From: Uliginosibacterium gangwonense DSM 18521
GTDB taxonomy: Bacteria > Pseudomonadota > Gammaproteobacteria > Burkholderiales > Rhodocyclaceae
Direction: 5' to 3'
DNA: 64,000 nucleotides
Assembly (NCBI RefSeq): GCF_000373965.1
Contig: NZ_KB892868.1
Span: 177,743-241,742 of the forward strand
The notes beneath the pieces are model-generated. The model did no database searches. It was not told where the DNA came from and saw nothing but the letters and a program-made list of their open reading frames with translations. This document shows, piece by piece, positions 53,267 through 56,920 of this stretch (positions are counted from its first letter, which is position 1; each line of letters starts with the position of its first letter). The position numbers and the translations under genes are program-made.

Positions 53267-53752
53267 ATGAAAAAGGCTTGGCTTGCGATACTGATCGTAG
53301 CGGGGCTGGTATTGAGCAGTTTTGCCAATGCCGAGATTTATCGCTGGGTGGATAAAAACGGCAAGGTGCAATACTCCGACGTGCCCCCCACCGACACCAA
53401 CGCCCAGACCCGCAAACTCAGCACCAACACCATCGAGATGGACAAGCTGCCTTATGACGTGCGCAAGGCGGCTGAAGCTGCGCCGATTACGTTCTACTCC
53501 TCGCCCGACTACAAGGACGTCTGCGACACGGCCCGTGCGCTCCTCAAGGCCCGCAAGCTGCCCTTCACCGAAAAGGTGGTCAAGACCACTGATGACGTGA
53601 AGGACATCGTCAAGCAGATCGGCAAAGCTCCGATGGTGCCCTCCCTCTCGGTGGGTTCCAAGCTGGTCCAGGGCTTCAATGAGGACAGCTGGAACAGTGC
53701 CCTGGATGCAGCAGGCTATCCCAAGCAATTCAAGCCGAAAACGGCTGAGTAA
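53267..53752 (+). CDS. Exported DUF4124/glutaredoxin-like protein
   Basis: A 161-residue protein with a signal peptide (about 1-22, cleavage after ANA). Residues 23-60 are a DUF4124 domain (EIYRWVDKNGKVQYSDVPP), common in betaproteobacterial periplasmic proteins. Residues 75-150 resemble a glutaredoxin fold (ITFYSSPDYKDVCDTARALLKARKLPFTEKVV, then PSLSVGSKLVQGF), but the CxxC redox motif is reduced to one cysteine, so ordinary redox activity is doubtful. GGAGAAG precedes the ATG. Function is unknown. Confidence 0.82.
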   Translation: MKKAWLAILIVAGLVLSSFANAEIYRWVDKNGKVQYSDVPPTDTNAQTRKLSTNTIEMDKLPYDVRKAAEAAPITFYSSPDYKDVCDTARALLKARKLPFTEKVVKTTDDVKDIVKQIGKAPMVPSLSVGSKLVQGFNEDSWNSALDAAGYPKQFKPKTAE

Positions 53753-53848: not shown

Positions 53849-53876
53849 TTGCGAATGATTCTCATTTGTATATAAT
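53849..53876 (+). promoter_or_regulatory. Promoter overlapped by a Fur-like box
   Basis: TTGCGA (53849-53854), a 16-base spacer and a perfect TATAAT (53871-53876) make a good sigma-70 promoter. The spacer is filled by GCGAATGATTCTCATTTGT, which has the AATGATnnTCATT core of a Fur box. Fur with iron bound would block this promoter, so expression should rise when iron is scarce. The predicted start is near 53883. Confidence 0.75.
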
Positions 53877-53883
53877 CACCCAT

Positions 53884-53962
53884 GTCGTCGGCTGATCGGT
53901 TGGGGATCGACTGATGACAGGTGGCGAGGGGCTGCCATACAGCGGCAGCCTCTCCTCACCAC
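53884..53962 (+). ncRNA. Tandem hairpins at the 5' end of the Fur-controlled transcript
   Basis: Hairpin 1 pairs 53884-53897 with 53905-53918 (14 positions, one mismatch, three wobbles) around GGTTGGG. Hairpin 2 pairs 53921-53936 with 53944-53962 (GGCTGCC with GGCAGCC, then GAGG with CCTC and GTGG with CCAC) around ATACAGC. They begin right at the predicted transcription start. This may be a structured leader or a separate small RNA; a weak GCCC/GGGC hairpin with a loose T-rich tail follows near 53970-53996. Confidence 0.45.
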
Positions 53963-54053
53963 GTAGCGTGCCCGACCATGGGCCACTCTTTGCTTTCGCA
54001 AGCCAGCGACACCATGTCAGCCAGCCAGCACCTTTTCATCGCAGGAATCACTC

Positions 54054-54161
54054 ATGAAAAAGATGGCTTGCCTCGCGCTTGACATTTTGCGCACAACACG
54101 CTTGACGCACGCATCGCTATCAAATGGCATATCCATCAGCCATACCCACTCACTCTCTTGA
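54054..54161 (+). CDS. Possible 35-residue leader peptide
   Basis: A short frame starts MKKMACLALDILRTTRLTH and has AGGA seven bases before its ATG. It ends 21 bases before the next gene's start. It lies within the Fur-controlled leader, is Ser/His-rich at its end and matches nothing I know. It may be translated or may be chance. Confidence 0.3.
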   Translation: MKKMACLALDILRTTRLTHASLSNGISISHTHSLS

Positions 54162-54182
54162 CCGTACCCCAAGGAGTCATTG

Positions 54183-54479
54183 ATGAATATCGATCCAGAC
54201 ATGGCTCAGACGAGCCCGGCGACATTACTGGCAGCCGCCCTCCACCTTCTGACCTGCTCGGCGGCCCATGGCTTAAGTCGGGCAAAATGCCAAGCGCTGG
54301 TCTTGCAACTGACAACGCTCGCCGAGCGCACCGATACCGATCCGTTGCTGGCACGGACATGCGATGAACTGGCTGACATCTGGTATCGCCTGGGCGAAGA
54401 GCTGGAAGCCCATAAGCAGGAGCAGGCAGTACAGAGCCGCGCCATGGCAGAAAAAATGCAGCAAGCCCTGCTGCACTGA
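54183..54479 (+). CDS. Small helical protein, function unknown
   Basis: A 98-residue soluble protein, predicted almost all helical (TSPATLLAAALHLLTCSAAHGLSRAK, then ELADIWYRLGEELEAHKQEQAVQ as a probable coiled coil). An AAGGAG seven bases before the ATG at 54183 is a clear binding site and selects it over the ATG at 54180. No named family is recognised. It is the first well-supported gene after the Fur-like promoter, 15 bases before hemP, so it is probably made under iron limitation. Confidence 0.65.
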   Translation: MNIDPDMAQTSPATLLAAALHLLTCSAAHGLSRAKCQALVLQLTTLAERTDTDPLLARTCDELADIWYRLGEELEAHKQEQAVQSRAMAEKMQQALLH

Positions 54480-54494
54480 GCGGATTGGCGCGCA

Positions 54495-54683
54495 ATGAAA
54501 GACATTTCGAGCACACCACCCCCGGGATTCAAGGTTACGGCAGAACATGCACAGCCCCCGCAGCCTGCAATCATCCCCAGCCGGGCGCTGCTAGGCCAAT
54601 CCAATGTCATCACCATTGAGCATGAGGGCATGCGCTACACCTTGCGGGCGACACGCAACGGCAAGCTGATCCTCACCAAATAA
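54495..54683 (+). CDS. hemP: Hemin uptake protein HemP
   Basis: HemP/HmuP is a small cytosolic protein linked to expression of heme uptake genes in many proteobacteria. The 62-residue product ends with the family pattern SRALLGQSNVITIEHEGMRY then TLRATRNGKLILTK, in which the LLG, the central IxHxGxxYxLR and the RxGKLILTK tail are diagnostic. The usual neighbour, a TonB-dependent heme receptor, is absent here; instead a ribosomal protein S4 gene follows 34 bases downstream. Its position after a Fur-like box supports iron regulation. Confidence 0.88.
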   Translation: MKDISSTPPPGFKVTAEHAQPPQPAIIPSRALLGQSNVITIEHEGMRYTLRATRNGKLILTK

Positions 54684-54717
54684 ACCATGCCAAAGAAATA
54701 TTGAAAGGATTCAACGG

Positions 54718-55329
54718 ATGTCTCGCTACACTGGCCCCCGTCTCAAAATCATGCGTGCCTTGGGTGTCGATCTGCCCGGCCTATCCCGCAAAACGATTGC
54801 CAACCGCCCACACCCACCCGGTCAGCATGGGATGAAACAGCAGCGCAAATCCGGCTACGGGCTACAGTTGCAGGAAAAGCAGAAACTGCGCTTCAACTAT
54901 GGCCTGTCTGAGCGGCAGATGCGCCGCCTGGTGATCGAATCCCGCCGCGCCAGGGATTCCGCCGGGGCCAAACTGGCCGAACTGCTGGAACGCCGCCTGG
55001 ATAATGTGGTGTTTCGCGCAGGCTTTGCCCCCTCGATTCCTGCTGCCCGGCAACTCGTCAATCACGGCCACTTCAGAGTCAATGGAAAAGCGGTAAATAT
55101 CCCATCCTTCCTAGTGCGCACAGCAGATGTCATCAGCATTCATCCCCGGAGCAAAACCCTGACGATCATTCAGGCCAACCTTGCTGATCCGGCACTGAGC
55201 CGCCCCGCATGGCTTGCCGTAGATGAGGCGCAATTGAGTGCATGCGTCAGCTACCTGCCCGGCCTGGACGACATCCCGTTTCCACTGGAAATGCAGTTGA
55301 TCGTGGAATATTACGCACAAAGGATCTAG
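54718..55329 (+). CDS. rpsD: Alternative ribosomal protein S4, cyanobacterial/plastid-like
   Basis: S4 binds 16S rRNA early in 30S assembly. The 203-residue product aligns along the whole S4: the N-terminal start SRYTGPRLKIMRALG, EKQKLRFNYGLSERQMRRLV, then the S4 RNA-binding domain (ERRLDNVVFRAGFAPSIPAA, RQLVNHGHFRVNG) and the final LIVEYYAQRI. The N-terminal block (RxGPRL, LPGLSRKT, EEKQKLRFNYGLSERQ-like) resembles cyanobacterial and chloroplast S4 more than E. coli S4, and there is no cysteine in that region. Housekeeping rpsD sits in the alpha operon, which is not here, so this is probably a second copy. GAAAGGA precedes the ATG. Iron-linked expression is inferred from position. Confidence 0.85.
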   Translation: MSRYTGPRLKIMRALGVDLPGLSRKTIANRPHPPGQHGMKQQRKSGYGLQLQEKQKLRFNYGLSERQMRRLVIESRRARDSAGAKLAELLERRLDNVVFRAGFAPSIPAARQLVNHGHFRVNGKAVNIPSFLVRTADVISIHPRSKTLTIIQANLADPALSRPAWLAVDEAQLSACVSYLPGLDDIPFPLEMQLIVEYYAQRI

Positions 55330-55665
55330 GGTCTGCTCATCCGCAGGAGGCAACAGAGGCGCTATCACCCTGATCAAGCGGAATTCCACGCTCGCCAGCG
55401 CCTCGCCCCAGTCGGCCTCACACAGACGATGTGTATGAAAAATCCCGACCGCATGTCGCCACAACATCGGCCGACCGGTCAAAAACCATTGCAAAAGAAA
55501 GGGTAAGTGCTGCACATTTGTCCAAGCCCTCCAGCACAACGGGTCTGACGTGCGGCTTGCGCAATCTGCTGTCTGATTCCCTTGTTGAATCGGAAGAAGG
55601 CAGCCAGAATGAAGAAGCCATCGCAATCACCGACGGCCATGAACAAACCTGACAGGAGAGCCTCA
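55330..55665. other. Gap between the S4 gene and the bacterioferritin-like gene
   Basis: This 336-base stretch has no convincing gene. A minus-strand frame (55111-55626) crosses it but overlaps the S4 gene antisense and has no start signal or known motif. A plus-strand frame joins onto the ferritin-like gene from 55582 but lacks conserved sequence. No terminator is visible after the S4 gene, so read-through into the ferritin-like gene is possible. Confidence 0.45.
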
Positions 55666-56121
55666 ATGAACGACCTCGACACAAAAAAAGCCATCGCGGC
55701 ACTCAATTTCATCATGGAAACCGAGCTAGCCGGTGTGGTGCGCTATACCCACTATTCCTTGATGGTATATGGTTATCACCGCATCCCCATCGTCTCGTGG
55801 CTCAAAGACAATGCCGCCGAGGGGCTGACGCATGCACACAAAGCCGGAGAACTGGTGACTTTGCTGGGCGGCCACCCTTCGCTGAAAATCGGCGCCTTGC
55901 TGGAAACAGAAAAACACGATATTGGCGATATTCTACGTGAAAGCCTAGAACACGAGAAAAACGCCCTCAGGGGCTATTACGATTTGCTCAAGATTGCAGA
56001 AAGTACATCCGTGCTGCTGGAAGAATATGCACGTGAGATGATCGTGCAGGAAGAGCTTCACCTGGACGAAGTCAACAAGATGCTACGCAAACCGGGCGAT
56101 ATCTCGCCGTTTGACGCCTGA
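55666..56121 (+). CDS. Bacterioferritin-like iron-storage protein
   Basis: A 151-residue four-helix protein of the ferritin/bacterioferritin superfamily. Candidate di-iron ligands are Glu18 in METELAGVVRYTHYSL, Glu52 with nearby histidines in AAEGLTHAHKAGELVTLLGGHPS, a Glu in the third helix (LEHEKNALRGYY) and an ExxH in VQEELHLDEVNKML. The heme-binding Met of classical bacterioferritin (position 52) is not evident, so heme may be absent. An AGGAGAG site precedes the ATG. Its neighbours hemP and the Fur box point to iron management. Confidence 0.88.
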   Translation: MNDLDTKKAIAALNFIMETELAGVVRYTHYSLMVYGYHRIPIVSWLKDNAAEGLTHAHKAGELVTLLGGHPSLKIGALLETEKHDIGDILRESLEHEKNALRGYYDLLKIAESTSVLLEEYAREMIVQEELHLDEVNKMLRKPGDISPFDA

Positions 56122-56236: not shown

Positions 56237-56920
56237 ATGCTTCCCTTCGTCAGCATTCTCACCCCTACCGCCAACCGCCGCGCCTTCATCCCGCAACTGC
56301 TGCGCAACTATCGCCGCCAGGATTATCCCGCCAATCGCATGGAACTGGTGGTACTCGACGATGGCGAAGACAGTGTCGCTGATCTGCTGCAAAACCAGCC
56401 TGGCGTGCGCTATATCCGCCTGGACGAGAAAACCCTGCTGGGGCACAAGCGCAACCTGCTGGCCGAGTATGCCAAAGGCGATATCCTGGTGCACATGGAT
56501 GATGACGATTACTATCCGCCACGCCGGGTCAGCCATGCGGTCGCCACGCTCAGCGCCAGTGATGCGCTGATTGCAGGTTCAAGCCTGATGTATGTGTACG
56601 ACTGCACACGCAACAAGCTCTTCCAGATGGGGCCATTCGGCCCCAACCACGCCACCAATGGCACCTTTGCCTACAAGCGCGAATATCTCGCGGATAATCG
56701 CTTTGATGACAATGCAATCATCCGCGATGAAGCCTTGTTTACCCGCAACTTCACCAACCCGATGGTGCAACTGGATGCCTGGCTGGCCATTGTGTGTATT
56801 GCGCATGCGCGCAACACCTATGCCAAGCACTTAAACAACGAGGCCCCCTTCAAACTCAAGGATCTAGTCAAGTGCCCGGAGTCCCTGCGGTTCTACCGTT
56901 ACTCCGCAGGAAAACTCTAG
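56237..56920 (+). CDS. Glycosyltransferase family 2-like protein
   Basis: A 227-residue GT-A fold enzyme. It opens with FVSILTPTANRRAFIPQLLRN, has the nucleotide-sugar loop ELVVLDDGED (about 36-45), and the metal-binding acidic run VHMDDDDYYPP (about 84-94), as in family 2 transferases. The C-terminal part (YVYDCTRNKLFQMGPF, then NGTFAYKREYLADNRFDD) suits acceptor binding. The acceptor is unknown. The frame is open from 56111, overlapping the end of the ferritin-like gene, but the family homology starts at the ATG at 56237. Confidence 0.82.
   Translation: MLPFVSILTPTANRRAFIPQLLRNYRRQDYPANRMELVVLDDGEDSVADLLQNQPGVRYIRLDEKTLLGHKRNLLAEYAKGDILVHMDDDDYYPPRRVSHAVATLSASDALIAGSSLMYVYDCTRNKLFQMGPFGPNHATNGTFAYKREYLADNRFDDNAIIRDEALFTRNFTNPMVQLDAWLAIVCIAHARNTYAKHLNNEAPFKLKDLVKCPESLRFYRYSAGKL

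Follow-up and report, generated by a model that had tools for sequence, protein, structure and literature searches.

Zinc-containing ribosomal proteins are well known to be swapped under the control of Zur, as with the paralogs of L31, L36, L33, S14, S18, and L28. Ribosomal protein S4 is a primary binder of 16S rRNA. In Thermus, uS4 carries an Fe4S4 cluster that, as reported in PMC6555806, was confirmed by long-wavelength X-ray data; the cluster also appears in PMC10450194, where the metal signature of uS4 is taken as CxxC...CxxxxC. Pairs of S4 proteins termed C+ and C−(IV) have already been described by Chen et al., e.g., in Nitrosomonas and Myxococcus (PMC3087516). We examined such a pair in Uliginosibacterium gangwonense DSM 18521, whose genome is 5.02 Mb. 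A stretch of 64,000 nucleotides on contig C35 (here called the window, always at its full length) holds a second S4 gene, S4b, behind a Fur-like box and next to hemP. From sequence comparisons, we consider it probable that S4b is a Fur-controlled, iron-sparing replacement for the housekeeping S4 (S4a), and an iron counterpart of the Zur-controlled paralogs.

Two S4 genes were found in the genome (matches at E 0.001). S4a sits in an ordinary alpha operon, rpsM-rpsK-rpsD-rpoA-rplQ; the first-pass annotation of the window had counted on another rpsD in the genome, and this is where it was found. S4b (positions 54718 to 55329, forward strand) is 41% identical to S4a across the matched part. It scores as a bacterial S4 by TIGR01017 (229.7 bits against a cutoff of 177.2) and also lies over the cutoffs of PF00163 and PF01479. 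Its predicted structure superposes on ribosomal S4 along nearly the full length, a whole-chain match to the S4 fold, with low confidence in the N-terminal part.

The cysteines of S4a, C9-x2-C12...C26-x4-C31, align one to one and in register with those of T. thermophilus S4, and from this alignment an iron-sulfur cluster on S4a is probable. S4b has none of the four, and its lone cysteine is residue 176. Among relatives, the CxxC...Cx4C signature was present in all 40 S4a proteins examined (21 from genomes bearing S4b and 19 from genomes without an S4b match) and absent from all 25 S4b proteins, of which the G094 copy has a lone cysteine at residue 17. Judged by cysteine pattern, this is the arrangement of metal-regulated alternative ribosomal proteins, a cysteine-bearing housekeeping copy and a cysteine-free paralog. 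S4b reads RALG at positions 13 to 16 (Leu 15) and has Gly at position 21, while S4a reads RREG and has Leu at the same positions. By the signatures given by Chen et al. (PMC3087516), the S4a sequence is classed as C+ and that of S4b, without the four N-terminal cysteines, as C−(IV).

The group containing S4b begins at 53849 on the forward strand and runs in the order of promoter with Fur-like box, leader, a small orphan gene, hemP, S4b, and a ferritin-like gene. The coordinates confirm the first-pass annotation, which had placed these genes on one strand behind a Fur-like box within a promoter. The promoter is sigma-70-like, TTGCGA-16-TATAAT (53849 to 53876, forward strand), with the −35 hexamer TTGCGA at 53849 to 53854 and the −10 hexamer TATAAT at 53871 to 53876, and it aligns with the heme receptor promoters of G074 and G011, two sampled congeners that served as sister genomes for comparison. 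Between −35 and −10 lies the Fur-like box GCGAATGATTCTCATTTGT (53851 to 53869, forward strand), a predicted operator matching a Fur consensus at 14 of 19 positions. Our threshold for a Fur-like box was at least 14 of 19 matches to the pattern GATAATGATTMTCATTATC (= GATAATGAKAATCATTATC) or its reverse complement and was scored by sequence only; on that scoring, a Fur-type operator overlaps the promoter. The Fur core AATGATTCTCATT (53854 to 53866) is the only match in the window at 0 or 1 mismatch, with 0.07 expected. A run of 18 bases, TTGCGAATGATTCTCATT, is identical in G074 and has two differences in G011.

We found S4b in 25 of 101 genomes of the family, including that of U. gangwonense, calling it at E 1e-60. 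A Fur-like box stood at the operon head in 18 of these 25 loci, with 860 bases scanned per head (290 and then 721 for G047). Around the S4b loci, 481,973 bases held 33 Fur-like matches, compared to 0 to 2 in shuffles that move two-base blocks, so that composition is kept and dinucleotides are kept in part. Across 40 S4a (alpha-operon) loci of the same family, comprising 144,682 bases, there was no Fur-like box at this threshold. Zur-like sites, defined as 9 of 10 matches to GTTATNNNATAAC, were at chance, with 1 in the 481,973 bases versus 1 to 4 in shuffles, and a scan of 29,283 bases around the S4b of the window gave none. Regulation by Zur was rejected on these chance-level counts; a narrower scan (up to 6 kb per side) gave no site and the wider scan gave one, in G020.

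Heme and iron genes recur near S4b. As markers we took hemP, a TonB receptor, CobN-like, ExbB-like/DUF2149, Bfr/Bfd, or FTR1 within −12 kb to +6 kb of S4b, a range in which some loci are cut. At least one such marker of heme or iron uptake or storage was present at 18 of 25 loci, or at 20 when a ZIP-like transporter was included. By tblastn, hemP was found around 12 of the 25 S4b genes, a TonB receptor around 15, CobN-like around 10, and ExbB-like and DUF2149 around 8 each. Of the 101 genomes, 24 have DUF2149, and 12 of these 24 bear S4b (one-sided Fisher p = 0.0019); in 11 of the 12, the two genes are no more than about 11 kb apart. The five loci without any marker are those of G072, G047, G093, G035, and G092, and a ZIP-like gene is the only metal marker in G040 and G097. 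The first-pass annotation had proposed an iron-linked parallel to the Zur paralogs; with Fur-like boxes at 18 of 25 heads and iron or heme neighbors at 18 of 25 loci, this idea gains strong comparative support, and the interpretation in that annotation, taken as a whole, is partly supported.

Two observations on the neighborhood stand apart. At L127 (G040) and L128 (G097), the genes after S4b are a member of the orphan family and a ZIP-like metal transporter (named by eye), in place of heme-uptake genes. A stand-alone EAL-domain gene, resembling cyclic di-GMP phosphodiesterases, recurs adjoining S4b at L113, L114, L116, and L119 (Pfam on the L116 copy only).

The analyzed genome offers an example of natural gene loss. 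The sisters G011 and G074 both show the order Fur-like box, TonB receptor, CobN-like, ExbB-like, DUF2149, orphan, hemP, S4b, DUF2325, and ferritin-like gene. Family names were assigned on G011 and G031 proteins; the G011 receptor is over the TIGR01786 and TIGR01785 cutoffs for heme/hemoglobin receptors, and the G011 CobN-like and ExbB-like proteins belong to PF02514 and PF01618, respectively. The promoter and leader of the window align with those of the sisters through TTGCGAAT..TTCTCATT, TATAAT, and the CGCAAGCCAGCG...CAGCCAGCCAGC block. The likeness to G074 extends into the receptor start, the G074 leader running into GATGAAAAAGATG. In the window, a short open reading frame of 35 codons, MKKMACLALDIL... 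(54054 to 54161, forward strand), is the apparent remnant of the start of a lost heme receptor. Thus, the analyzed genome appears to have lost the segment from the receptor to DUF2149 along with most of DUF2325, keeping this receptor-like frame. The hmu-type set of TonB heme receptor, CobN-like, ExbB-like, and DUF2149 genes, all four present in G011 and G074, is not present as such in the analyzed genome, where neither CobN nor DUF2149 was found and no receptor is at the locus (the genome-wide searches covered CobN, hemP, DUF2149, and S4). The first-pass annotation had remarked that the heme receptor was missing. None follows hemP, as it said, but the receptor-type leader and apparent receptor start are there upstream.

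S4b has been kept through this loss. Compared with the sisters, S4b has a nonsynonymous divergence (dN) of 0.17 and a synonymous divergence (dS) of 1.4 to 1.7, a dN/dS of about 0.10 to 0.13, with dS values here and below near saturation. The values for S4a are dN 0.03 to 0.04 and dS 0.9 to 1.0, those for the orphan are dN 0.21 and dS 1.0 to 2.4, and the ferritin-like gene has dN 0.07 to 0.09. hemP is less constrained (dN 0.32 to 0.35 and dS 0.84 to 0.93 over 50 to 54 codons). These estimates indicate that S4b and the orphan are under purifying selection and that S4b evolves faster than S4a yet is constrained. All 25 S4b copies are 202 to 205 residues long with no internal stops. Since S4b and the orphan were kept under selection despite the loss of the receptor-to-DUF2149 segment, the usefulness of S4b is apparently not tied to heme uptake by the lost system.

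The best available evidence that the S4b type can serve in ribosomes comes from a relative, G047. Its alpha operon reads rpsM-rpsK-178 nucleotides-rpoA-rplQ on an unbroken contig with no S4a, and the same rpsK-rpoA gap is 687 nucleotides, including rpsD, in the analyzed genome. The loci concerned are on contigs C24 (L196) and C276 (L197). S4b is the only S4 found in the G047 assembly, and we read this genome as natural evidence that an S4 of this type works in ribosomes. A comparable S4 replacement in Methylobacillus is given by Chen et al. (PMC3087516). In the 721 bases upstream of the G047 S4b, no Fur-like box scored above 12/19; a divergent dksA-like gene (by eye) lies upstream. Absence of S4a was not scored as loss in G013, G035, and G090, where rpoA/rpsK are also missing or rpoA is at a contig end, or in G008, where there is no S4 at all.

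The leader may add a second layer of control. Regulation by way of the 5′ leader has been reported for the HemP family (PMC9131926). In the window, hemP (54495 to 54683, forward strand) encodes 62 amino acids (PF10636, 63.6 bits, cutoff 25) and is the sole hemP detected in a search of the analyzed genome. A block of the leader, GCAAGCCAGC..AGCCAGCCAGC (53998 to 54029, forward strand), resembles the HmuP-responsive element (HPRE) of Chromobacterium violaceum chuR in PMC9131926 and is a predicted HemP/HmuP-responsive element; the same element also precedes the heme receptor in G011 and G074. A riboswitch in the leader was rejected, as the single Rfam match was on the opposite strand at E 0.36 and 23.5 bits, far under the gathering score of 55.

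Our model is as follows. With iron present, Fur is predicted to bind 53851 to 53869 and to keep the promoter off. When iron is scarce, the promoter would open and yield a single message for the orphan, hemP, and S4b; HemP might also boost this message through the HPRE in the leader. S4b would then take the place of S4a in new 30S subunits, and the probable iron-sulfur cluster of S4a would not need to be filled. Fur binding, the response to iron, incorporation into ribosomes, and the iron-saving benefit are all steps that we infer. The fuller claim, that this would be iron-sparing ribosome remodeling and the first of its kind, with Fur (and HemP on the leader) swapping a cluster-free S4 and a small helper for a 4Fe-4S S4, is one we advance tentatively and rate a little below even.

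Several points weigh against reading S4b as a Fur-controlled, iron-sparing replacement. No S4b match was found in 76 of the 101 family genomes, and the paralog is therefore dispensable for the lifestyle. Seven of the 25 S4b loci lack a 14/19 box at the head: G013, G005, and G093 reach 13/19, as does G070 at −4187, just downstream of the set head, while G007, G072, and G047 score 12/19 or less. The heads, which lie as far as 11.6 kb upstream, were picked by us from the order of genes on the same strand, with operon continuity presumed. The Fur-box call in the window itself is weakened by the promoter scan, which taken by itself is within chance (1 found versus 1.3 expected), and by a stricter Fur 19-mer test that gave no match at 3 or fewer mismatches. 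A second 14/19 match in the window, at 56498, lies inside a gene, as do a few of the 33 matches around the S4b loci. The sole Zur-like site (9/10) is at the operon head of G020, next to its Fur-like box. The Fe4S4 cluster has been demonstrated in Thermus only, and the S4a cysteines of this mesophile could hold zinc. A ferritin-like gene is an odd member of an iron starvation group. G047 is a draft genome (95% complete, 340 contigs), in which an S4a located elsewhere could have been missed. Finally, eight stand-alone S4 loci outside the family (L003 to L010, from Poribacteria, Myxococcota, and one other bacterium) gave no match to the iron queries.

Four other explanations were weighed. S4b could be an S4 for iron starvation that alters accuracy, assembly speed, or the antibiotic response, the absence of cysteines being incidental to the acquisition of a C− type gene. 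An E. coli S4 mutation is reported to alter accuracy and stress resistance (PMC8141631), and, as described in PMC3087516, C− paralogs of Clostridia rise during sporulation and C−(IV) S4 lies inside the alpha operon in many bacteria; cysteine loss therefore did not arise for iron saving. However, the four cysteines were kept in every S4a examined, and the predicted switch is Fur and no other regulator. We regard this explanation as unlikely. That S4b is instead a zinc-sparing paralog of the Zur-controlled kind, its position in iron clusters being secondary, would fit the description of C+ S4 as zinc binding (PMC3087516), the ZIP-like transporters (by eye) of G040 and G097, and the Zur-like site of G020. 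Against this, Fur-like matches exceeded shuffles (33 versus 0 to 2) and occupied 18 of 25 heads, while Zur-like matches did not exceed them (1 versus 1 to 4). Chen et al. likewise found no Zur sites near S4 paralogs (PMC3087516), and the Thermus uS4 site holds Fe4S4 (PMC6555806). We rate zinc sparing as very improbable.

The patchy distribution, with 76 of 101 genomes lacking a match, and the related genes in Myxococcota and Poribacteria would suit a transferred passenger gene that is carried along in iron clusters and seldom, if ever, used. Such a passenger would hardly be expected to show purifying selection and 25 intact copies, to be retained with its promoter after the loss of the heme genes, or to be the sole S4 found in G047, and we consider this very improbable. 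S4 is also known for regulatory RNA binding, in alpha-operon repression and rrn antitermination, and S4b might have its main role off the ribosome, as an RNA-binding regulator that acts alongside HemP on the heme-uptake message. It adjoins hemP, whose family reportedly regulates through the 5′ leader (PMC9131926). Yet S4b is still kept in a genome that has neither CobN nor DUF2149 and no receptor at this locus, and G047 again has no other S4 that we found; of all the explanations, we give this one the least credence.

As for origin, we built a tree from 85 of 128 sequences, with S4a thinned to every second locus and the others by number; it includes no cyanobacterium, and its bootstrap had not settled. 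Family S4a forms one clade (100/100), separate from S4b, in keeping with the expectation of the first-pass annotation that this S4 would fall apart from ordinary S4 of the family. The S4b copies group with S4 proteins from stand-alone genes in Myxococcota and Poribacteria (100/98), as two groups and not one, and acquisition of S4b by transfer is likely on this tree. The cyanobacterial or plastid source suggested in the first-pass annotation was not supported: plastid S4 (uS4c, chloroplast chains) scores under several bacterial S4 proteins in the structure database, and S4b has its nearest neighbors in the tree among Myxococcota and Poribacteria, although a tree without cyanobacteria does not settle the matter. 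In the S4 tree of Chen et al., beta and delta C−(IV) paralogs group near Cyanobacteria (PMC3087516).

Outside the family, a class sample of 369 genomes (including that of U. gangwonense, S4b-like called at E 1e-46) held an S4b-like gene in only 3 other genomes, all of one family, at 48 to 49% identity, with no iron-gene match and no Fur-like box within their 3.6 kb. In another family of the class, f152 (L144, L145, and L146), a stand-alone C− type S4 lies beside scpB-like and pseudouridine synthase-like genes (by eye) and has no iron-gene match. Among the eight stand-alone loci, L003 has a 14/19 Fur-like match inside an open reading frame downstream of S4, and L003 and L005 have one Zur-like match each, far from S4. 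A wider spread of the iron link beyond the family was rejected, as the loci of these relatives are without iron-gene matches.

The orphan (54183 to 54479, forward strand) encodes a small helical protein of 98 amino acids (AlphaFold2 mean confidence score, pLDDT, 94). It belongs to no Pfam or NCBIfam family above cutoff and has no fold match in the PDB at E 0.001. It may resemble Pseudomonas FagA. Named relatives come from Rhodocyclales or a betaproteobacterial metagenome-assembled genome (27 matches; the best 120 of 172 in a second search). By an iterated profile, which may draw in look-alikes, 24 of 25 genomes have a family member at their S4b locus, sometimes as two or three copies. The exception is G047, where a cut stretch only was scanned. 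Members are mostly less than 1.5 kb from S4b; the only one in G053 is 8.3 kb upstream. Because it is the gene most constantly found with S4b, the orphan may assist in the swapping or assembly of S4b. At L112, L119, L120, L124, L117, and L099, two or three divergent copies are present per locus, which suggests a multimember small-protein family of Rhodocyclales in iron clusters.

The ferritin-like gene (55666 to 56121, forward strand; 151 amino acids, PF00210, 67.2 bits) starts 336 bases past the end of S4b, and in the sisters it lies 3′ of S4b and DUF2325. In the window, a remnant of the DUF2325 gene, the C-terminal end in two frames, lies at 55460 to 55649 on the forward strand (tblastn with the DUF2325 gene of a sister, E 4e-9 for a search space of 500 bases). 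Since this remnant sits between S4b and the ferritin-like gene, we are unsure that the latter is cotranscribed with the S4b group. The first-pass annotation had counted it as a group member; its strand and position hold, but it may be outside the transcript. Upstream of the group, a gene at 53267 to 53752 has a DUF4124 domain and a glutaredoxin-like domain (just under cutoff), with no evident tie to the group.

If S4a is an iron-sulfur protein, every ribosome made takes up four iron atoms and needs a supply of clusters. Should S4b be the iron-sparing replacement that we propose, a Fur-derepressed S4 without the site would save as many as four iron atoms for each ribosome made and make 30S assembly independent of iron-sulfur supply. 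It would tie iron limitation to 30S assembly and give physiological meaning to the uS4 Fe4S4 cluster. It would also account for the retention of C− S4 paralogs alongside C+ copies; the regulation of these paralogs is left open in PMC3087516. With the S4a/S4b pair in one genome and relatives that have only one of the two, the question is directly testable.

Among the ranked results of our searches of open-license papers, neither an S4 controlled by Fur or iron nor an iron version of the ribosomal protein swap turned up, and the searches made gave no report of a uS4 cluster in a betaproteobacterium. The term “ribosomal protein” does not occur in a Nitrosomonas Fur paper, and neither “ribosomal protein S4” nor “rpsD” occurs in an Azoarcus BH72 paper. 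Like the hmu operon of Bacteroidota, HmuYRSTUV (PMC12583661, PMC10434189), the operons of the two sisters contain TonB heme receptor, CobN-like, MotA/ExbB-like, and DUF2149 genes; they differ in being joined to hemP, the orphan, and S4b, and the comparison does not extend to HmuY and HmuT. The four cysteines of T. thermophilus uS4 (PMC6555806, PMC10450194) recur in S4a at matching positions, whereas S4b is without the site. S4b is like the C−(IV) paralogs of Chen et al. in having Leu 15 and Gly 21, no cysteine cluster, and a location apart from the alpha operon in a genome that also has a C+ copy. For those paralogs, Chen et al. found no Zur site and discussed zinc and sporulation (PMC3087516); here, S4b stands with a Fur-like box, an HPRE, and heme and iron genes. 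Taken together, S4b resembles the Zur-controlled alternative ribosomal proteins in being cysteine free beside a cysteine-bearing copy and in its predicted derepression at metal scarcity, but the predicted metal and regulator are iron and Fur instead of zinc and Zur, and the protein is S4.

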